This document shows positions 2,790 through 12,135 of a stretch of DNA of 12,135 bases, one piece after another. The DNA comes from Deltaproteobacteria bacterium RIFOXYA12_FULL_61_11. Its GTDB lineage: Bacteria; Bdellovibrionota_F; JAHFAK01; YA12-FULL-61-11. Below the pieces are notes generated by a model. The model made no database searches, was not told the DNA's origin, and saw only the letters and a program-made list of their open reading frames with translations. The stretch's first letter is position 1. Each line of letters starts with the position of its first letter. Position numbers and translations under genes: made by a program. The stretch is taken from the NCBI GenBank assembly GCA_001799195.1, contig MGSU01000086.1, positions 1,412 to 13,546 on the forward strand, read 5' to 3'.

Positions 2790-2830
2790 TACTGTGCTGG
2801 ACGACGGGTCCCTGGTTTTCGGTGCTGATC

Positions 2831-2850
2831 TGCGGTATCTTTGCGGTATC
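2831..2850. repeat. Tandem 9-base direct repeat with 11-base period
   Basis: TGCGGTATC occurs at 2831-2839 and again at 2842-2850, offset by 11 bases, about one helical turn. It lies 29 bases before the lipoprotein start, in its probable leader or promoter. Could be a binding site for an activator using tandem half-sites, or chance. Confidence 0.5.
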
Positions 2851-2878
2851 GAACCTTCCTGACCCGAGGATCGCCGCT

Positions 2879-4180
2879 ATGCAAGCCTTCCTACTACCAG
2901 GACGGACCCCTGCTCTCCTCAGTGGTGTATACCTCCTCCTCTTCCTTTACTCCTCCTGTCAGGATCCGGCCTTCGTCTCCGATCCCTCTCAGGTCCACGA
3001 TCAAACCTCGACCGAGCCCACACCGCACGACCCCGCCGCTCCAACCCTGGAGCAAACGGAAAACGACCGGCTCGACGGACTTGATCCCGCCCTTTCCCAA
3101 GAAAATCCAATGGAGGTTCCTGCGACCGGATCCGGTCAGGTTCCCGGTGGGGCCTCTGCCCTCACGATCTCTTGTACGGATCAGAGCGGTGATGCCCTCT
3201 GTCAGGTCTTTCTCGAGGGAGAACGGTTCGATCCCGCGTCGGGTTGGATCCTCTCCCTCGAGGAACTCGCTCCAAAATCTCTACCTATGGAATGGGACGA
3301 GGACCTCGGTCTGCTCACGATATCTCCCGGTGATATCGATCTGGACACCGCGCGGGTCATCCTTACAGCGCGGCGAGGAGAGGATGTCCTGGACCTGACC
3401 GCAAGGCTTCCCCTGCATGCGTCGACCAACGGAGAAATGGTTGTGGTAGTCGAAGATCCGGTCGTCGATCCTACCCTGCCCCCGTTGACAATAGGTGACG
3501 ATATACAGCCTAGTGAGGATCCACCCCCTATCGAAATGGTGCAAGGACCCTGTACCGAGGGGAAACGCCTCTCCATCTGGTTGGACAGCAACGACGATGG
3601 CGAGCGCGAGGGAGAACCCCTGCTTGGCTACATCACGACCTACCAAGGACCCACCACCGCGGCGGCAAATTACAATTATTCCAGCGCTTCGGCTCACCCG
3701 TTGATCGGACCGCCCACGACCAACTTCGAGAGCAAGGTCTTTTTCTTCGACGGTACCGATGGCCTTGCATTGACCATGTTCCACAACACCGAGAACGACA
3801 ATGACAAACAGAACGCCGTGCTCTGGAACGTTACGGTCAGGGGTAACAACTTGCGCGATGCCGTGCTGCAGTCCGACGACGCAAATGTCCGCGCGATAGG
3901 TCGCTATCAGGGGCCGGAATTCCGACTGCTATCGACTGACCAAGCACATGCGACTAAGTTGTATATCGGCGACTGGAAATACCAATCCAATACGGATGGC
4001 GGCGTACTCGGTCCCTTCGAAGGTGAGGACTTCACCATCGCTGTGCGCATCGATCAAACCGGCAACCTGACCAACGCCACCTTCTTCTCGGCCAACGGTC
4101 AGACCTTTCAACTCAAGGACGCGACCCGAAACATCAGTTCTTTCATCATCGCTTACGCCGGTGAGCAGACCTGTCCCTGA
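2879..4180 (+). CDS. Probable secreted lipoprotein of unknown function
   Basis: Not a family I recognise. I start it at ATG 2879, where GAGGA (2866-2870) stands 8 bases upstream, giving 433 residues; a GTG at 2822 in the same frame would add 19 residues ahead of the signal and has no ribosome binding site. Residues 1-27 form a signal peptide with a hydrophobic stretch (ALLSGVYLLLFLYSSC) ending in a lipobox-like cysteine at 27. The -3 residue is Tyr, with Leu at -4, so lipidation is likely but atypical. Residues 28-95 are rich in Pro, Asp, Glu, Thr and Ser, a flexible linker. Cys99 and Cys108 may pair, as may Cys225 and Cys432. DSNDDGEREGE (236-246) resembles an EF-hand or dockerin calcium loop. 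The C-terminal half is acidic, β-rich and Asn/Thr-rich. Likely surface- or periplasm-exposed. It precedes another exported unknown protein in the same direction; no enzymatic motif is visible. Confidence 0.8.
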   Translation: MQAFLLPGRTPALLSGVYLLLFLYSSCQDPAFVSDPSQVHDQTSTEPTPHDPAAPTLEQTENDRLDGLDPALSQENPMEVPATGSGQVPGGASALTISCTDQSGDALCQVFLEGERFDPASGWILSLEELAPKSLPMEWDEDLGLLTISPGDIDLDTARVILTARRGEDVLDLTARLPLHASTNGEMVVVVEDPVVDPTLPPLTIGDDIQPSEDPPPIEMVQGPCTEGKRLSIWLDSNDDGEREGEPLLGYITTYQGPTTAAANYNYSSASAHPLIGPPTTNFESKVFFFDGTDGLALTMFHNTENDNDKQNAVLWNVTVRGNNLRDAVLQSDDANVRAIGRYQGPEFRLLSTDQAHATKLYIGDWKYQSNTDGGVLGPFEGEDFTIAVRIDQTGNLTNATFFSANGQTFQLKDATRNISSFIIAYAGEQTCP

Positions 4181-4261
4181 ACCCGCCGATGACAGGCTCC
4201 AGTAACCTTTCTGGCCACAGGAACACCGTCAACTTGCAGCCCCAATCGAATGCCGTGAGGC

Positions 4262-4317
4262 AAAAGAAAGAAAATCAAATGATTATGAATTTTCCTGACG
4301 CATTGTACTTGGAATTT
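4262..4317. other. AT-rich leader segment before the cysteine-containing secreted protein
   Basis: A short stretch visibly richer in A and T than its surroundings, starting with a purine run (aaaagaaagaaaa). It contains in-frame ATGs at 4279 and 4285. Its composition looks like a leader or promoter rather than coding sequence, which favours a later start for the following gene. I could not define convincing -35 and -10 boxes. Confidence 0.3.
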
Positions 4318-4362
4318 CATGGCATCGACCTTGCAATGCCGCTCCCCTCGCGTTCCCGTGCA

Positions 4363-5694
4363 ATGGAGACCGCAGTGCGATTCGCCTTCCCTCACACTCC
4401 GAGACGCAGCCCGATCGCACCTCTGCTCGTGCTCATTTTCCTCGCGTTCGGATGGTACTCCTTCGTCGCCGCGAGCGACCAACCTGCCTACCTCGATCTC
4501 AATACCATCGCGCCGACCCAAGATGCCCTTTCCTTCCCCTATGCTCAATTCATGGGCCGAAACTTCGCCTGTGATGCCATGGGAGCGTGTACCTTCAAGC
4601 CGCTCTTCAACGAAACAAAGCCGCTCAGAGTGTATTCCGGTCCGAGGTTCGATCAACACGGGGCCGTGATGCCCGGCACGACACAGGTATACCAATCGGA
4701 CGGCCATCACCGCAGCTTCGGTTACCTCGCCCAACAGGCCTTTGTCGTCTCGATGCAGCAACGCGGCATCCCGCTGACTCAGGGGAACCTCTCGAGGATC
4801 ACCCGGGAGTGGGATGCCTTCGATGTGCAGACCTTCCTCACTACCCCTGGCAATCGCGAAGCGCTCGAACAGCACATGGCCCAGCCGGGCCAACGCGTGC
4901 CGGTGCAGTTCGTGGACTCGACCTCGCCCCAGGTCATGGCCGATCGCATCTCGGCCTACCGCAACAACCCGGTCAATCGCATCCCCGAGGGCATGTCCGA
5001 CCAACAGGTCTTCCTGCGCATGATGCGCAAGAAGAACCAAGCTTACCTGTATTCCCACCCGCTCGAAGACGATGGTGTCGGTGAGCGGTTACCCCCCAGA
5101 CGGTATGTCGAGCTGCGCAATGTGCCCATGCGAGGAGTGGTCGGCTCGGTCGGGTACCATTATCCCAACCGCTACTGGAGTCAGACTGGCAAGGATTTCG
5201 AGGAGTTCTTCGTCGCCGAGGCCGCGGAACAGCGCATCGCCGACTATCTGAAGACCAAGGGAAAGTTCTGTTTCAACTATACCTCTATGTTCGCGTACGA
5301 GTCGGTACCGGACAAGAGCCAGGACAGGGCCTGCATCATCGCGGGTCGCGAACGCAGGTCCTCGAAATGTGCCCGCTACCTACGCGACGTCAAAGCCCTG
5401 CAAACTATGGAACGGCAGGGAGGGACGAGCTTCCCCCATACGCAAGCCTGCAAGAACGAGAGCACGGGAGGCGACGGTCCTTCGTGCCGCCGTTGCGTCA
5501 CGGCCGAGGAATACCGCCAACTGAACCAGACCGACCTGCTGCACATCCTCATCCACCTGCTCAGGGACGATCCCGACACGTTCAGGCATATCTCGGGCGT
5601 CAGATACCCGAGTGAGGCGACGATCTCCACCTGCGCCTTGCGCCAGATCGACCACGAGTCCGCAGCACTCCGCGCCATCGCCAATACCCTCTGA
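4363..5694 (+). CDS. Exported protein of unknown function with nine cysteines
   Basis: Not recognised. The frame is open from 4189, but the start at ATG 4363 gives a sensible signal peptide: basic PRRS at about 13-16, hydrophobic PLLVLIFLAFGWYSF (20-34), and a likely cleavage after VAA (35-37). In-frame ATGs at 4279, 4285 and 4336 are alternatives; none has a clear ribosome binding site, so the start is uncertain. From 4363 the protein is 443 residues. Cysteines sit at 70, 76, 303, 324, 336, 363, 375, 378 and 424: a C-x5-C pair near the N-terminus and a C-terminal cluster including a CxxC (SCRRC, 374-378). A central hydrophilic region is rich in Arg and Gln. The C-terminal cluster suggests a disulfide-stabilised or metal-binding domain. 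CxxCH is absent, so it is not a c-type cytochrome. Next to a probable lipoprotein gene; the 182-base gap means cotranscription is possible but not shown. Confidence 0.75.
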   Translation: METAVRFAFPHTPRRSPIAPLLVLIFLAFGWYSFVAASDQPAYLDLNTIAPTQDALSFPYAQFMGRNFACDAMGACTFKPLFNETKPLRVYSGPRFDQHGAVMPGTTQVYQSDGHHRSFGYLAQQAFVVSMQQRGIPLTQGNLSRITREWDAFDVQTFLTTPGNREALEQHMAQPGQRVPVQFVDSTSPQVMADRISAYRNNPVNRIPEGMSDQQVFLRMMRKKNQAYLYSHPLEDDGVGERLPPRRYVELRNVPMRGVVGSVGYHYPNRYWSQTGKDFEEFFVAEAAEQRIADYLKTKGKFCFNYTSMFAYESVPDKSQDRACIIAGRERRSSKCARYLRDVKALQTMERQGGTSFPHTQACKNESTGGDGPSCRRCVTAEEYRQLNQTDLLHILIHLLRDDPDTFRHISGVRYPSEATISTCALRQIDHESAALRAIANTL

Positions 5695-5886: not shown

Positions 5887-5896
5887 AGGAGGTGAT
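5887..5896 (+). promoter_or_regulatory. Extended ribosome binding site of hyfB
   Basis: AGGAGGTGAT is a full match to the 3' end of 16S rRNA. It ends 10 bases before ATG 5907. An in-frame GTG at 5892 falls inside this element, so it cannot be the start it would otherwise suggest. Confidence 0.75.
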
Positions 5897-5906
5897 ACTT
5901 CATCCC

Positions 5907-7892
5907 ATGATATTCCTCTTGTTCGGATGTGGTTGGATCGTTCTCTGCGGTTTTGCCGCCCTGCTGCCTCTCCTTCCCTCCCGTTGGTCCGGAACCATTG
6001 CAGTGGTGGGAATCGTAGGTGGCTCGATGCTCGGTCTCCCGTCGGCCGTCAGCAAGGTATTAGGAGGGACTCCGGAACTGGCTTCGATGGTCTGGAGTAT
6101 ACCCGGAGGAACCTTGTCGGTCGCGCTCGATGCGCTCTCGGGGTTCTTCTTGGTCCCCATCTACCTCGTGTGCACCCTCGCCGCGTTCTATGGACTTGAA
6201 TACCTGCGTTCCTCGCCGAGGGGAAACTCCCTTGGAGTGTTCTGGTGTTCTTACAACCTCCTTATGGTGTCCATGATTGTGGTCATCCTGGCCAAGAACG
6301 GCATCCTGTTCCTGCTCGCTTGGGAAACGATGGCCTTGACCTCATTTTTCCTGGTGACTTTCGAGAATGAACGGCCCGAAGTGCAAGCGGCGGGTTGGAT
6401 CTACCTCGTCGCCACGCATCTCGGTACCGCTTTCCTCCTCGTTCTGTTTTTGTTCCTCGGAGAAGCCGCAGGCTCCTATGACTTCGACAGGTTTCCACCG
6501 GTGGTTCAATTCCTACCAAGTGGGGGGCTGTTCCTCCTGGCGTTGGTGGGCTTCGGTACCAAAGCCGGGTTTGTTCCATTCCATGTCTGGTTGCCCGAAG
6601 CCCATCCCGCTGCCCCGAGCCACGTTTCCGCGGTCATGTCCGGATTGATGATAAAAACCGGCATCTATGGCTTGGTGCGCATCGTGACCTTGCTCGGTCC
6701 GCCCTCGACCTGGTGGGGTGTACTGCTGGTAGGCCTCGGCGTGAGTTCCGGCATCTTAGGGGTTCTCTTCGCGCTCGCCCAACACGACCTCAAGCGCCTG
6801 CTCGCCTACCACAGCGTCGAGAACATCGGCATTATCCTCACAGGGTTGGGGCTCGGGCTTCTCGGCCTCAGCCTGCACCTTCCCGCACTCGCCGCGCTCG
6901 GTTTCGCGGGTGGACTTCTCCACGTCCTCAATCATGCCCTCTTCAAGTCACTCCTCTTTCTGAGTGCAGGTGCGGTTGCCCATGCTACCGGAACCAGGGA
7001 GCTCGATCAGCTTGGCGGGTTGGCGAAACGCATGCCGGTGACCTGCTTCTTCTTCTTGATCGGTGCCGCGGCGATCTCCGGGCTGCCCCCCTTGAACGGT
7101 TTCATCAGCGAATTCCTGATCTACCTCGGGGCATTCTCGACGGTTACTGCCCATAGTGCGCTGGTTGCCCTCGGTCCGGCGCTCGTAGCAGTGGCTGGCT
7201 TGGCTCTCATCGGAGGCTTCGCCGCGGCCTGCTTCACGAAGGCCTTTGGTATTGTGTTCTTGGGCGAACCCCGTGATCCCCATACCCCCGAGGGACACGA
7301 ACCCGGAGCACTGATGCTCGTTCCCATGGGGATCCTAGCCCTCTCCTGTGTTGTGATCGGCATCTTCCCCGCCGGCCTGTTACCGGCGATGGAGACGGTG
7401 GTCGCCTCTTTCACCCTCCAGACAAAGGATGACCTATCGGTGATCTTGCAGGAAACGGTCGAGCCTCTCTTGATCCTCTCACTTGCTGCTCTGTTGTTCT
7501 TGAGCCTTGCAGGGGGCTTCGTGGTACTCCGCCGGCGACTGTTGAGGAGACGTCCAGTGGAAGAAACCGTGACCTGGGATTGCGGGTACGCCCAACCCAC
7601 GCCACGCATGCAATATACCGCCTCCTCCTTTGCTCAGCCTTTTGTGGCACGCTTTGCTATCTTCCTGCGAACTCGGCATCTTGGTGGATTGCCGAAGGGT
7701 TTTTTCCCGCGAATGGCCTCGCTCTCCACCAAGACTCCCGATGTGTTCCGCCAGAGCTTGTATGCGCCGCTGTTCCTCGGGATCGAGAAAGGTTTGCACT
7801 ACTTGCAGGTGCTGCAACGAGGCCGAGTGCAAGTGTATGTGCTCTACATCGTGTTGGCACTCGTTGCTCTCCTGACCTGGACGAGGAAATAG
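5907..7892 (+). CDS. hyfB: HyfB-like antiporter-type membrane subunit (NuoL/M family, hydrogenase-4 type)
   Basis: A 661-residue polytopic inner-membrane protein, close to the usual length of HyfB (about 670). It belongs to the Mrp antiporter-like proton-translocating subunits. Visible hallmarks are the TM5 glutamate in LLAWETM (Glu140), the TM7 lysine in GFGTKAGFVPFHVWLPEAHP (Lys219), the TM8 lysine in SGLMIKTGIYG (Lys250), AQHDLKRLLAYHSVENIGI (291-309), and a charged TM12 site NGFISEFLIY (Glu402). After the antiporter core, an extension carries WDCGYAQPTPRMQYTASSFA (from residue 557), diagnostic for HyfB/HycC-type subunits rather than NuoL. All charged residues expected for proton transfer are present, so pumping is likely intact. 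First gene of the operon, with its own promoter and strong ribosome binding site; 3 bases separate it from hyfC. Confidence 0.93.
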   Translation: MIFLLFGCGWIVLCGFAALLPLLPSRWSGTIAVVGIVGGSMLGLPSAVSKVLGGTPELASMVWSIPGGTLSVALDALSGFFLVPIYLVCTLAAFYGLEYLRSSPRGNSLGVFWCSYNLLMVSMIVVILAKNGILFLLAWETMALTSFFLVTFENERPEVQAAGWIYLVATHLGTAFLLVLFLFLGEAAGSYDFDRFPPVVQFLPSGGLFLLALVGFGTKAGFVPFHVWLPEAHPAAPSHVSAVMSGLMIKTGIYGLVRIVTLLGPPSTWWGVLLVGLGVSSGILGVLFALAQHDLKRLLAYHSVENIGIILTGLGLGLLGLSLHLPALAALGFAGGLLHVLNHALFKSLLFLSAGAVAHATGTRELDQLGGLAKRMPVTCFFFLIGAAAISGLPPLNGFISEFLIYLGAFSTVTAHSALVALGPALVAVAGLALIGGFAAACFTKAFGIVFLGEPRDPHTPEGHEPGALMLVPMGILALSCVVIGIFPAGLLPAMETVVASFTLQTKDDLSVILQETVEPLLILSLAALLFLSLAGGFVVLRRRLLRRRPVEETVTWDCGYAQPTPRMQYTASSFAQPFVARFAIFLRTRHLGGLPKGFFPRMASLSTKTPDVFRQSLYAPLFLGIEKGLHYLQVLQRGRVQVYVLYIVLALVALLTWTRK

Positions 7893-7895
7893 GGC

Positions 7896-8807
7896 ATGGA
7901 TGCAACTGCCTTACTGGCACCTCTGGCTGCCTTGGTATTGGCCCCACTGTTCCTCGGGATCATCAACAGGACGAAGGCCTTTTTCGCCGGCCGTCACGGC
8001 CAACCCCTGTTCCAACTCTATTTTGATCTCCAGAAGCTCCTCGGCAAGGGGGCTACCTACAGCAGGACCAGCACCTGGATCGTACGCGGGGGACCGATCA
8101 TCGGGCTTGCCGCATTGATGGTTGTCGTGTTGCTGGTCCCCTTGGGAGGACTTTCCGGACTGGTCCGATTCCCCGGAGACCTCCTGCTCTTTGCCTATCT
8201 CCTCTCCATGGCGCGCTTTTTCACGGTCCTGGCCGCCCTGGATGTCGGTTCGAGTTTCGAGGGCATGGGGGCCAGCCGGGAAGTATTCTTCTCCACCCTC
8301 ACGGAACCAACCCTCATGCTGAGTCTGGCGGTATTGGCCCACCAGAGTCACAGTCTCTCGCTCTCATCCGCCCTTGGCGCAGTCACGGTGACGAGTTGGT
8401 TACAACACGGGACGTCTCTCGTTCTGGTCTTTGTGGCTCTGCTCGTGGTTTGCTTGGCCGAGAATGCGCGCATTCCGATCGACGATCCCAATACCCATCT
8501 CGAACTCACCATGATTCACGAGGTGATGGTTCTCGATCATGGAGGTCCCGACCTGGCTTTCATCCTCTATGGTTCAGCCCTGAAGTTGTGGATCTTCGCT
8601 TCTCTGGTGGTAGGCTTGGTGCTTCCCGTGCGCACCGGTGTTGCGTTCCTCGATCTGGGGAGCATGCTCCTGGGCATGGGCTTGCTGGCGATCGTGCTCG
8701 GTTGCATCGAATCGACCATGGCAAGGCTGCGGCTCCTGCGGGTACCCAACCTGCTCGTGGGCGCAACCACCCTCGCAACCCTGGCTCTCGTGTTGGCGGT
8801 GAGGTGA
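7896..8807 (+). CDS. hyfC: HyfC/HycD-like membrane subunit (NuoH family)
   Basis: A 303-residue membrane protein that in complex-I-like enzymes anchors the peripheral redox arm and couples it to the proton pumps. The N-terminal helix is followed by RTKAFFAGRHGQPLFQLYFD (25-44), the first cytoplasmic loop conserved in the HyfC/HycD/NuoH family. The diagnostic block AENARIPIDDPNTHLELTMI (188-207), then HEVMVLDHGGPDL (208-220), matches the family signature including its acidic residues. Length matches HycD/HyfC (307-315). GAGGA (7883-7887) precedes the ATG by 8 bases, inside the end of hyfB. The next gene starts 3 bases after its stop, so this is a single transcription unit. Confidence 0.93.
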   Translation: MDATALLAPLAALVLAPLFLGIINRTKAFFAGRHGQPLFQLYFDLQKLLGKGATYSRTSTWIVRGGPIIGLAALMVVVLLVPLGGLSGLVRFPGDLLLFAYLLSMARFFTVLAALDVGSSFEGMGASREVFFSTLTEPTLMLSLAVLAHQSHSLSLSSALGAVTVTSWLQHGTSLVLVFVALLVVCLAENARIPIDDPNTHLELTMIHEVMVLDHGGPDLAFILYGSALKLWIFASLVVGLVLPVRTGVAFLDLGSMLLGMGLLAIVLGCIESTMARLRLLRVPNLLVGATTLATLALVLAVR

Positions 8808-8810
8808 GCG

Positions 8811-9464
8811 ATGAACCATCCATCCCTCATTGAAGCCGTCCTGGTCACCGTCGTGCTCACCAATTTACAACTCCTCGGGTCCAGCCGCTTGAAAATCTGT
8901 ATCCATATGGTCGGGTTGCAGGGGATCGTCGCCGGCTTGTTACCGGTGCTGCTGGATCATGAAGCCAATCCCCTGCGGGCATGGCTGTTGGTAGTCGGCA
9001 GCGTCGCCATAAAAGGCATTGTATTCCCGAAGCTCTTACTGCGAGTTCTTCGCGATGCTGGAGTGTGCCGCGAGGTCGAACCGTTCGTCGGCTATATTCT
9101 CTCGCTCCTGGCCGCGGTATCGGCGCTGATGTTCTCGCTCTGGATGGGTTCCACCCTGGTCCTCCCCCAAGCGCCCGTCGGTACAACCCTCATGGCTCCG
9201 GTGGGCTTTACCACGATCCTGGTCGGTCTCTTGGTGATCATTACTCGGCGCAAGGCGATCAGTCAGGTGATCGGTTACGTCGTGGTCGAGAACGGCATCT
9301 ATATTTTCGGCGTCGCCCTGGTAGGCGGGGTACCCATGCTCGTCGAACTCGGAGTGCTCATGGATGCCTTCGTCGCCGTCTTCCTCATGGGCATTGCAGT
9401 ATACAAGATCAGCCGGGAATTCGACCACATCGACGTCGATCGTCTCAACCGGATGCAGGGTTGA
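8811..9464 (+). CDS. hyfE: HyfE-like membrane subunit (NuoK-related)
   Basis: A 217-residue hydrophobic protein, the same size as E. coli HyfE (216). The second half carries the NuoK-like segment ISQVIGYVVVENGIYIFG (150-167) with membrane glutamate Glu160, and MLVELGVLMDAF (176-187) with Glu179 and Asp185. It ends in a cytoplasmic tail FDHIDVDRLNRMQG, typical of HyfE. NuoK-like subunits form part of the proton path between the NuoH-like anchor and the antiporter subunits. GAGG in gaggtgagcgATG supports the start; hyfF begins 5 bases after its stop. Present in Hyf-type and absent from Hyc-type (FHL-1) operons, so it marks this operon as Hyf-like. Confidence 0.9.
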   Translation: MNHPSLIEAVLVTVVLTNLQLLGSSRLKICIHMVGLQGIVAGLLPVLLDHEANPLRAWLLVVGSVAIKGIVFPKLLLRVLRDAGVCREVEPFVGYILSLLAAVSALMFSLWMGSTLVLPQAPVGTTLMAPVGFTTILVGLLVIITRRKAISQVIGYVVVENGIYIFGVALVGGVPMLVELGVLMDAFVAVFLMGIAVYKISREFDHIDVDRLNRMQG

Positions 9465-9469
9465 AGGGT

Positions 9470-10951
9470 ATGGCTGCTGACTGGATCCTTTGGCCGATAC
9501 TGACCTTCCCAGTGCTTTCGGCGGGATTGTGCCTGACGCTCCATTCTCCACAGCGGATCCTCGGCGCAGTCGCGTTCCTGGGGTTTCTCTGGGCGCTCTT
9601 GCTGGGAGCAGTAGCTGTGACCGTGATGTACCTGGGGACGCTAAGCGCCGCTCGTCACTGGCTCACCTTGGACATGCTCTCGAGTTACCATCTCCTGATC
9701 TTCGGCATGGTGTTCGGGGCGAGTTCTCTTTACGCACGACACTATTTCAGCTTCGAAATCGCTCACGATGAGTTCAACCTCGAAGACGGACGCAAGTTCG
9801 GAGCCCTGTGGTTTGGCTCCGGAACCGCGATGGTCTCGGTACTCCTATGCAACAACCTCGGTTTGATGTGGGTGGGCATCGAGGCCACGACCCTCCTGAC
9901 CGCCTTTCTTGTATGCGCCCATGTCACCCCTCTGTCCTTGGAGGCGATGTGGAAGTACCTGGTGGTATGTTCCGTCGGGGTCGCCTTCGCTTTCATAGGC
10001 ACCCTCCTCGTAGCCGCTTCGGCCCTGGAACTGGGGTTGGCCGCCGAGGACACCCTGCTCTGGACCGTTCTCGACGGCTCAGCCGAACGGCTTTCGCCGG
10101 GACCGATGAAGCTGGCCTTCGTCTTCCTCCTCGTGGGGTATGGCACCAAGGCAGGTTTGGCCCCCATGCACAGTTGGCTCCCGGACGCCCACAGTCAGGC
10201 TCCGACCCCGGTCTCCGCGATCCTGTCCGGGTTCATGCTCAACGCGGCGTTGTATTGCATCATGCGCTACCTGCCCCTCGTCGAGGGGGCTACGGGTCAC
10301 CTGGGATGGGGACGGGCGTTGGTGACGCTGCTCGGGATGATTTCCATGGTCCTGGCGGCGGCCTTCATCCTCTTCCAGCATGACGGCAAGAGGCTTCTCG
10401 CCTACAGCAGCGTAGAGCACATGGGTATCATTGCGCTCGGTTTGGGACTCGGTGGTATCGGTACCTTCGCCGGTCTTTGGCACGCGATGAACCACTCGAT
10501 TTGCAAGATCCTCGCGTTCTTCTCCATCGGTTCCTTGGGGCAGCTCTACGGTACCCATGATCTCGGCAAGATGGCTGGTGCAATGCGCCGCTCGCCGCTC
10601 TGGGGGCTCGGGTTCTTCGTCAGTGTGCTGATTCTCATCGGTTCTGCTCCATTCGCCATCTTCATGAGCGAGTTGCAGATACTCCGGGCCGCGATTCACC
10701 AAGAGGCTTGGGTCGTTCTGGCGATCTTCCTGGCGGCAGCAGCCCTGGTTTTCATCGGCGCACTCAAACTGGCCATCGCCGCTGCCTGGGGTGAGGAAGT
10801 GGTGGTTCCGAGGACGCAATCCTCTAGCATCATTGACGTTCTGCTGGTCATCGGCGCGCTGGGACTCCTCCTCCTCCTCGGACTGTGGCTACCCACCCCC
10901 TTGCACGGAATGATGGAGTCCGCCGCTCAGATCATCGGAGGCCGGCCATGA
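9470..10951 (+). CDS. hyfF: HyfF-like antiporter-type membrane subunit (NuoM/N family)
   Basis: A 493-residue second antiporter-like subunit, slightly shorter than E. coli HyfF (526). Key residues include the TM5 glutamate in LMWVGIEATTLL (Glu138), the TM7 lysine in VGYGTKAGLAPMHSWLPDAH (Lys227), FQHDGKRLLAYSSVEHMGI (302-320), a lysine in NHSICKILAFFSIG (Lys346), and IFMSELQIL with Glu401. The TM8 lysine seen in HyfB is replaced by Asn258. The frame is open much further upstream (from 8981), but that part overlaps hyfE and does not look like membrane protein; ATG 9470, 5 bases after the hyfE stop, gives the proper N-terminus. CAGGG or GAAGG just upstream serves as the ribosome binding site. 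The stop overlaps the hyfG start as ATGA, so translation is probably coupled. Confidence 0.92.
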   Translation: MAADWILWPILTFPVLSAGLCLTLHSPQRILGAVAFLGFLWALLLGAVAVTVMYLGTLSAARHWLTLDMLSSYHLLIFGMVFGASSLYARHYFSFEIAHDEFNLEDGRKFGALWFGSGTAMVSVLLCNNLGLMWVGIEATTLLTAFLVCAHVTPLSLEAMWKYLVVCSVGVAFAFIGTLLVAASALELGLAAEDTLLWTVLDGSAERLSPGPMKLAFVFLLVGYGTKAGLAPMHSWLPDAHSQAPTPVSAILSGFMLNAALYCIMRYLPLVEGATGHLGWGRALVTLLGMISMVLAAAFILFQHDGKRLLAYSSVEHMGIIALGLGLGGIGTFAGLWHAMNHSICKILAFFSIGSLGQLYGTHDLGKMAGAMRRSPLWGLGFFVSVLILIGSAPFAIFMSELQILRAAIHQEAWVVLAIFLAAAALVFIGALKLAIAAAWGEEVVVPRTQSSSIIDVLLVIGALGLLLLLGLWLPTPLHGMMESAAQIIGGRP

Positions 10952-12135
10952 ACTCCGTTCCACCTCTCCGCCTAACCAATGGCCAACCAGCAGAACGTGC
11001 AGCATTACCAATTGTTCCCTTTAGAAAATTTCGGGAACAGGTCCTCTACTCGCTCCAGCAGGATGCACGGCTCGCCGCATTCTATGCCGTCCCCCGACAG
11101 GGAACCACGTTCCAACTCGTTGCGGTCATGGCCCACGGCGGGAGCGGCGACTTCTCTCTGATCTCGACCGACATCGAGGACCACTACCAAGCCCTGACGC
11201 CCGGATGTGTTCAGGCTCATTGGTTCGAACGAGAAATCGCCGAGCAGTGGGCTATCACGCCTGAGGGACATCCATGGTTGAAGCCCCTCCGCTTCCACCG
11301 GTCCTACCGCAAGGATAACGACGCCTGGAACCGTGATCCTGCTACCGAGATTCTCCCAGGGGTCACGACCTATTTCCGGGTCGAGGGCGAAGAAGTCCAC
11401 GAGGTCGCAGTCGGCCCGGTACACGCCGGGGTCATCGAACCCGGACATTTTCGCTTCCAGTGTTACGGTGAGCGGGTGCTGCATCTCGAGATCTCCCTCG
11501 GTTACCAACATCGGGGTATCGAACGCGCCCTTCTCGGGGGGCCAACCCTCAAGACAATCTCCCACATGGAGACTCTTGCCGGCGACACGACCATTGGTCA
11601 TGCCACTGCCTATTGTCAGGCTGTCGAAGCCCTGGCAGGATGCGTGGTACCGGAGCGAGCCGAGGCAATACGGGGGATTGCCCTGGAACTCGAACGCTTG
11701 GCCAACCACGTCGGCGACCTCGGGGCCCTGGCCGGCGATGTCGGTTATCTCCCCACCTCTTCGTATTGCGGTCGTTTGCGTGGAGAACTGCTCAACCTGA
11801 CCGCGCTCCTCTGCGGCAATCGCTTCGGCCGGAACCTCCTCCGGCCAGGCGGATCGGCCTTCGACCTCGAGGAACCGCGCGCCGCCGAACTGCTCAACCG
11901 TCTCGACCGGACCATGCGCGATATCACCGGTGCCGTTACCCTGCTGTGGAACGTACCCTCGGTCCTTGCACGCTTCGAGGATACCGGTATGATTTCTCGA
12001 CAGACCGCCCTGGATCTGGGCTTGGTCGGTCCCTCCGTGAGGGCGTGTGGAGTGGACCGGGATGCGCGGCGTGACTTTCCGAGCGGTATCTTCAAACGAG
12101 CCCCGGTGAAGGTCGCGGTTGGGAAGAGCGGGGAT
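10948..12135 (+). CDS. hyfG: HyfG/HycE-like fused NuoC-NuoD large subunit lacking the N-terminal Ni-binding CxxC (cut by window edge)
   Basis: 396 residues are visible and the frame is open to the end. Residues 1-130 are a shortened NuoC-like domain, with FSLISTDIEDHYQALT and the conserved WFEREIAEQWAITPEGHPW (92-110). The NuoD/large-subunit domain starts near 152: VAVGPVHAGVIEPGHFRF, then LEISLGYQHRGIERALL (180-196). In HycE this is followed by VCGICGFAH, whose two cysteines ligate nickel. Here the aligned residues (210-218) are LAGDTTIGH, with Ala211 and Thr214 in place of the cysteines, resembling the GDT/GDS of complex I 49-kDa subunits. So this is a HycE homologue that should not bind NiFe, as in Ehr-type complexes. 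The C-terminal CxxC region lies beyond the window. It would form the peripheral arm with a NuoB-like small subunit, expected downstream. The start is ATG 10948 in an ATGA overlap with hyfF. Confidence 0.9.
   Translation, partial: MNSVPPLRLTNGQPAERAALPIVPFRKFREQVLYSLQQDARLAAFYAVPRQGTTFQLVAVMAHGGSGDFSLISTDIEDHYQALTPGCVQAHWFEREIAEQWAITPEGHPWLKPLRFHRSYRKDNDAWNRDPATEILPGVTTYFRVEGEEVHEVAVGPVHAGVIEPGHFRFQCYGERVLHLEISLGYQHRGIERALLGGPTLKTISHMETLAGDTTIGHATAYCQAVEALAGCVVPERAEAIRGIALELERLANHVGDLGALAGDVGYLPTSSYCGRLRGELLNLTALLCGNRFGRNLLRPGGSAFDLEEPRAAELLNRLDRTMRDITGAVTLLWNVPSVLARFEDTGMISRQTALDLGLVGPSVRACGVDRDARRDFPSGIFKRAPVKVAVGKSGD

Follow-up and report, generated by a model that had tools for sequence, protein, structure and literature searches.

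The window analysed here, a stretch of 12,135 bp, forms the end of a contig (C86) in a genome that comprises 342 contigs and is 87% complete. On the forward strand, it carries five genes of a six-gene HyfBCEFGI-like operon in order, while the sixth, ehrS, is found on an overlapping contig (C234). The five genes encode an antiporter-type, HyfB-like membrane subunit (ehrA, 5907..7892; PF00361, 5e-55), a NuoH-type, HyfC-like membrane anchor (ehrB, 7896..8807; PF00146, 1.5e-29), a HyfE-like membrane subunit with a NuoK-like C-terminal half (ehrC, 8811..9464; PF00420, 5e-10), an antiporter-type membrane subunit resembling HyfF (ehrD, 9470..10951; PF00361, 1e-44) and a HycE- or HyfG-like large subunit (ehrL, 10948..12135; PF00346, 4e-22), which is cut by the contig end after 396 of its 507 residues. 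The order B-C-E-F-G-I is common to most of the 80 related loci compared in this study. In naming these energy-converting hydrogenase-related (Ehr) genes, we follow the literature, which uses EhrA, C, L and S only; the letters EhrB and EhrD were assigned to the HyfC- and HyfF-like subunits in this analysis. For ehrA, we use the ATG at 5907, which stands behind AGGAGGTGA; the listed GTG start is at 5892. The best NCBIfam match of EhrA is hydrogenase 4 subunit B, and EhrC matches the hydrogenase 4 membrane subunit (7e-24), in both cases under the cut-off.

In the membrane subunits, the Glu, Lys and His residues typical of antiporters and the acids of the NuoH/HycD-like channel are retained across 58 to 67 sequences. 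In EhrA, residues E145, K224, K301, E310, H344, H348, K352 and E407 (numbered from the GTG) are identical in all 62 sequences, and the same is true of E138, K227, K307 and K346 in EhrD (58 of 58); the charged channel residues of EhrB are near-invariant in 67 sequences. This bears out the proposal of the first-pass annotation, made from the window by itself, that the membrane arm has kept its proton-path residues.

Upstream of the operon lie two long open reading frames (2822-4180 and 4189-5694, both on the forward strand) without a Pfam or NCBIfam match, preceded on the reverse strand (1-2685) by a cluster unrelated to Ehr. This cluster encodes a TetR-family regulator, a DUF1302 protein and the N-terminal fragment of a membrane protein, which resembles an RND/MMPL exporter and has no Pfam match. 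Beside ehrS on C234 (L005, 3-5840), there are genes for a xanthine/uracil permease, a PAS-HisKA_2 histidine kinase, a beta-carbonic anhydrase and a DUF6206 protein, and no redox partner gene was found in this stretch.

The large subunit and its former nickel site

Because the contig and the window end at the same point, inside ehrL, the C-terminal site of the large subunit was invisible to the first-pass annotation. The reverse complement of C234 opens with the last 43 bases of C86, an overlap of exactly 43 bp of the kind left by an assembler, and carries the ehrL frame on for 111 more codons (L005:6650-7027, reverse strand) without a gap or an intervening stop. From this overlap and from the full-length alignment of the joined, 507-residue protein to a complete relative (L008; 69% identity over residues 1-507), we infer that the two contigs join here.

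Within the window, the L1 site of EhrL reads ETLAGDTTIGHATAY (residues 208-222, 11569..11613), where A211 (11578-11580), D213 (11584-11586) and T214 (11587-11589) replace CGxC. In alignments to E. coli HycE (7z0s_E, E = 4e-32), its best solved relative, and to MbhL (6cfw_L, 1e-30), A211 and T214 fall on the two CxxC cysteines, so that both the translation and the alignments confirm the earlier reading of these residues as replacements of the L1 nickel cysteines. The joined protein ends in DFPLCNKSFNLSYCGHDL, with S501 and G504 at the other two ligand positions. Its terminus, ISDFPLCNKSFNLSYCGHDL, aligns to VSDAPLIIGSLDPCYSCTDR of HycE, after which HycE has its cleavable tail, whereas EhrL has neither a C-terminal DPCxxC motif nor a tail. 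Based on these alignments, all four nickel ligands are therefore gone (C241, C244, C531 and C534 of HycE correspond to A211, T214, S501 and G504), with the loss at L2 being dependent on the join of the two contigs. EhrL thus ends just where [NiFe] hydrogenases are cleaved during maturation. Judging from these residues, a standard [NiFe] site cannot be built in the complex. A sequencing error at 11578-11590 can be rejected as the cause, because the nickel cysteines are likewise absent from all 80 relatives, which stem from Thermodesulfobacteriota, Spirochaetota, Planctomycetota, Myxococcota, Acidobacteriota, Elusimicrobiota and other phyla: residue 211 is A, S or G and residue 214 is T or S, but never Cys.

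The C-terminal sequence DFPLCNKSFNLSYCGxDL is almost invariant among these relatives, and six more distant, plasmid-borne homologues (from Variovorax, Allomeiothermus, Paraburkholderia, Rhodococcus, Rhizobium and Cupriavidus) share NKSFxxxYxGxDL. Across up to 86 Ehr large subunits, conservation reaches at least 97% at 27 residues that are unlike both HycE and the genome's own NuoD, among them I163, D213, N495, K496, S501 and G504. Since a decayed site would drift, this conservation indicates that the old nickel site is held and not decaying; the rebuilt site is, by this measure, under selection. Of 86 sequences, 85 have D at position 213, with an E aligned in Allomeiothermus, and K496 is invariant; it is reasonable to infer that this acid and this lysine pair up close to where the metal used to be. 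C494 and C503, which lie within the rebuilt C-terminus, are each found in 76 of 81 sequences. E164 (11437..11439) is the equivalent of HycE Glu193 and MbhL Glu21, which shuttles protons to the Ni-Fe centre of those enzymes (PMC9474812, PMC11228991), and is kept in 81 of 81 Ehr proteins as well as in five of five outlying ones. The canopy residue R448 (HycE Arg478) and the proton-path residues H254 (His284) and E407 (Glu437) are also invariant (81/81), and the canopy Asp529 of HycE has mostly become Asn in Ehr (N499).

In a phylogenetic tree, 39 Ehr large subunits form a single clade (100/99) apart from HycE/HyfG, MbhL and NuoD, with outgroups that are few and partly fragments; the nearest row to the window's EhrL is L008, from RIFOXYA12_FULL_58_15. 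By its predicted fold (mean pLDDT 86, pTM 0.90), the L008 protein comes closest to HycE, with Z 39.4 at 2.9 Å over 485 residues, compared with 34.3 for complex I. In this model of the subunit alone, confidence is low for residues 157-166 (the b1-b2 loop) and 492-507 (the C-terminus), and for the pocket.

The iron-sulfur subunit

In EhrS, encoded on C234, a ferredoxin domain for two [4Fe-4S] clusters is fused to a NuoB/HycG-like domain. The two ferredoxin-type clusters have C46, C50, C53, C57, C76, C79, C82 and C86 as ligands, and the proximal cluster has C142, C145, C209 and C239, in a motif (GGCNACE ... C209 ... C239) with HycG/MbhJ spacing and the hydrogenase-type GCxxC. Among about 79 EhrS sequences from the window's own clade, 73-79 retain these 12 cysteines, and the iron-sulfur chain of the window complex is, by its ligands, complete.

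Some distant homologues depart from this pattern. In Allomeiothermus silvanus, where EhrS is present in two copies on plasmid pMESIL01 (L093:10287-11159), all four proximal-cluster cysteines and most of the ferredoxin-domain cysteines are replaced, with the rest of the Ehr operon intact; this is possibly a complex without redox centres. The EhrS proteins of Paraburkholderia (L094:10581-11108), Rhodococcus (L095:2987-3529) and Rhizobium (L096:10357-10890) consist of the proximal-cluster domain only, and the route of electron input must therefore differ in them. Given the ferredoxin domain missing from the latter and the cluster ligands missing from Allomeiothermus, redox drive may not be a family-wide property.

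Genomic context and relation to known systems

In the window's own genome (87% complete), we found no match for HypC, HypD, HycI or the NiFe-hydrogenase large subunit (PF00374), and HypD is without a match in 16 of 50 relative genomes carrying Ehr. As far as sequence can tell, the lost nickel ligands, the missing tail, the missing HypC, HypD and HycI and the position in the Ehr clade identify the complex as Ehr, and not as a group 4 [NiFe] hydrogenase or complex I. The first-pass annotation had proposed a probable Ehr complex from the L1 site and had named the second CxxC site, a maturation tail, the maturation genes and the phylogeny as points to examine; its proposal is upheld on each of them. 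The same genome carries a separate complex I gene cluster on contig C169 and three ferredoxin-oxidoreductase (POR/PFOR) loci, and COX1 was not found in it, again at 87% completeness. The presence of UbiA was considered as a sign of quinone dependence and set aside as uninformative, as PF01040 matches 50 of 51 genomes, the match in the window's own genome being only marginal.

The Ehr family and its absent CxxC ligands have been published before (PMC4378227, PMC6349859, PMC10284858), with the function being called unknown (PMC10284858, PMC4378227). The Ehr (Ech-hydrogenase-related) complex of Geobacter sulfurreducens (GSU0739-0745), which we liken to ours by description, has EhrA, C, L and S subunits (HyfB/E/G/I-like), as here, and the Geobacter relative among our loci (L044) matches the window in gene set and motifs. 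The mention of an EhrA-1 in the G. sulfurreducens literature implies that this species has EhrA in a second copy. Also by published description, the operon resembles Rv0081-Rv0087 of Mycobacterium tuberculosis, an Ehr without maturation genes (PMC6728331).

With FHL and hydrogenase-4, the group 4 [NiFe] enzymes of HycE and HyfG, the window complex shares the large-subunit fold, its N-terminal NuoC-like domain and its proton-relay Glu and Arg, along with the HyfB/C/E/F membrane arm and the four-Cys proximal cluster. Beyond the lost ligands and tail, it differs from them by the fusion of a HyfH-like to a HyfI-like domain in EhrS and by an operon without HyfA, HyfD, HyfJ and Fdh genes. Like complex I (NuoD/NuoB), it has homologous large and small subunits, E-channel residues and no nickel. 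However, the quinone-binding His38 and Tyr87 of complex I are I163 and G212 in EhrL, the proximal cluster has GCxxC instead of adjacent CC, and the operon is free of NuoEFG genes. By sequence, the standard complex I quinone site is excluded in EhrL.

Directly upstream of ehrA, 30 of the 55 relatives with room at this position, from several phyla, carry a gene for a protein of 230-260 residues with an HTH_17 and a PTS EIIA_2 domain (L009, L011, L013, L015, L016, L019, L021, L036, L038, L042, L053, L074, L085, L087 and others), in 27 of the 30 cases on the same strand as the Ehr operon. An IAIPH-type EIIA histidine is visible in most of those inspected. This association suggests that the Ehr operon is under the control of the PTS phosphorylation state; the regulator gene was not found in the window's genome. 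When the neighbours in the 80 loci were clustered with the core masked, no enzyme gene proved to be conserved next to the operon.

Proposed mechanism and its alternatives

We consider it most likely that the complex acts as a ferredoxin-driven ion pump with a non-H2 acceptor. Specifically, it seems probable that ehrABCDLS, split here by an assembly break, encodes one Ehr complex in which ferredoxin drives pumping via the rebuilt pocket; ferredoxin is proposed as the electron source because of the three ferredoxin-oxidoreductase genes in the genome. Electrons from reduced ferredoxin would enter EhrS at the two [4Fe-4S] clusters of its N-terminal half and pass through the proximal cluster to a small acceptor. 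This acceptor would sit where the NiFe centre used to be, in a pocket rebuilt around D213, T214, N495, K496 and S501, with E164 supplying a proton. The b1-b2 loop would couple turnover to ion pumping via EhrB, antiporter-like EhrD and EhrA. The acceptor would be neither H+ nor a molecule held by the His/Tyr pair of complex I; our best guess is either a soluble oxidant or a quinone that binds in a different pose. The complex may also run in reverse, spending the ion gradient to reduce ferredoxin.

Electrons could instead come from formate, with the operon's products serving as the ion-pumping arm in a complex of formate dehydrogenase and Ehr such as the one proposed for Riflemargulisbacteria and Saganbacteria (PMC6349859), and the Ehr subunits of G. 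sulfurreducens are indeed commoner in formate-grown cells than under hydrogen-containing conditions (PMC7894505). This idea does not fit every host, since FdhA (TIGR01591, E<=1e-100) was not found in 24 of 51 Ehr genomes, including the 87% complete genome of the window, although gaps in metagenome-assembled genomes weaken such absences; apart from the regulator, moreover, conserved non-core neighbour families each reach about ten of the 80 loci at most. We regard it as quite unlikely. The non-redox alternative, in which the complex transports ions for pH or cation homeostasis and its hydrogenase-like arm is a structural relic, draws on the pH homeostasis role suggested for Methylacidiphilum Ehr (PMC6688271), on the EhrS of Allomeiothermus silvanus without cluster cysteines and on those of Rhizobium, Rhodococcus and Paraburkholderia without a ferredoxin domain. 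It is improbable for the window's clade, which keeps the 12 cluster cysteines.

The MBS sulfane-sulfur reductase of Pyrococcus furiosus is another group-4-derived pump without a NiFe site, and the same architecture, the many Ehr hosts among sulfur-metabolising Desulfobacterota and the presence of C494 and C503 in the rebuilt C-terminus would agree with a reductase that acts on sulfane sulfur or polysulfide at its proximal cluster. But MBS, set apart here by published description, has a three-Cys proximal cluster, whose motif is shorter by three residues, and still has two of the four nickel cysteines (PMC7684303), whereas EhrS has a four-Cys cluster with hydrogenase spacing and no nickel cysteine is left; likewise, the operon lacks the Mrp-type MbsA-G module, its membrane genes being limited to those like HyfB, C, E and F. 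An MBS-like activity is thus very unlikely. Finally, FHL and MBH are the closest characterised relatives by sequence and fold, and with E164 in place, the complex might be imagined as a [NiFe] hydrogenase with unusual ligands, such as C494 and C503; given that the four ligands are replaced in every relative, that there is no processing tail and that HypC, HypD and HycI were not found in the window's own genome, we attach next to no weight to this reading.

Returning to the ferredoxin-driven pump, a broader and rather doubtful generalization would be that Ehr represents a distinct, selected catalytic site of the complex I superfamily, beside the NiFe, quinone and sulfane-sulfur sites. It would consist of a D/T...NKSFxLSYxG pocket, free of metal, in which the hydrogenase proton relay is preserved and a cytoplasmic acceptor new to the superfamily is reduced, within a ferredoxin-driven ion pump under HTH-EIIA (PTS) control in many lineages. 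In the open-access literature searched, we found nothing on the NKSF motif, the C-terminal Ehr signature and its residue table, a link of EIIA to Ehr and the upstream HTH-EIIA gene, or the ligand-less EhrS of Allomeiothermus. The window operon also adds an Ehr member from a poorly sampled phylum, which is represented by two genomes in our distribution comparison. Bacteria of many phyla have Ehr complexes, among them gut Desulfovibrio, Geobacter, comammox Nitrospira and M. tuberculosis. In annotation, the genes are routinely given the names 'hydrogenase 4' or 'NADH-quinone oxidoreductase subunit C'. By sequence, Ehr can be told from hydrogenases and complex I with the C-terminal signature and the site table, and the Ehr-specific conserved residues are targets for mutation in finding the Ehr substrate.
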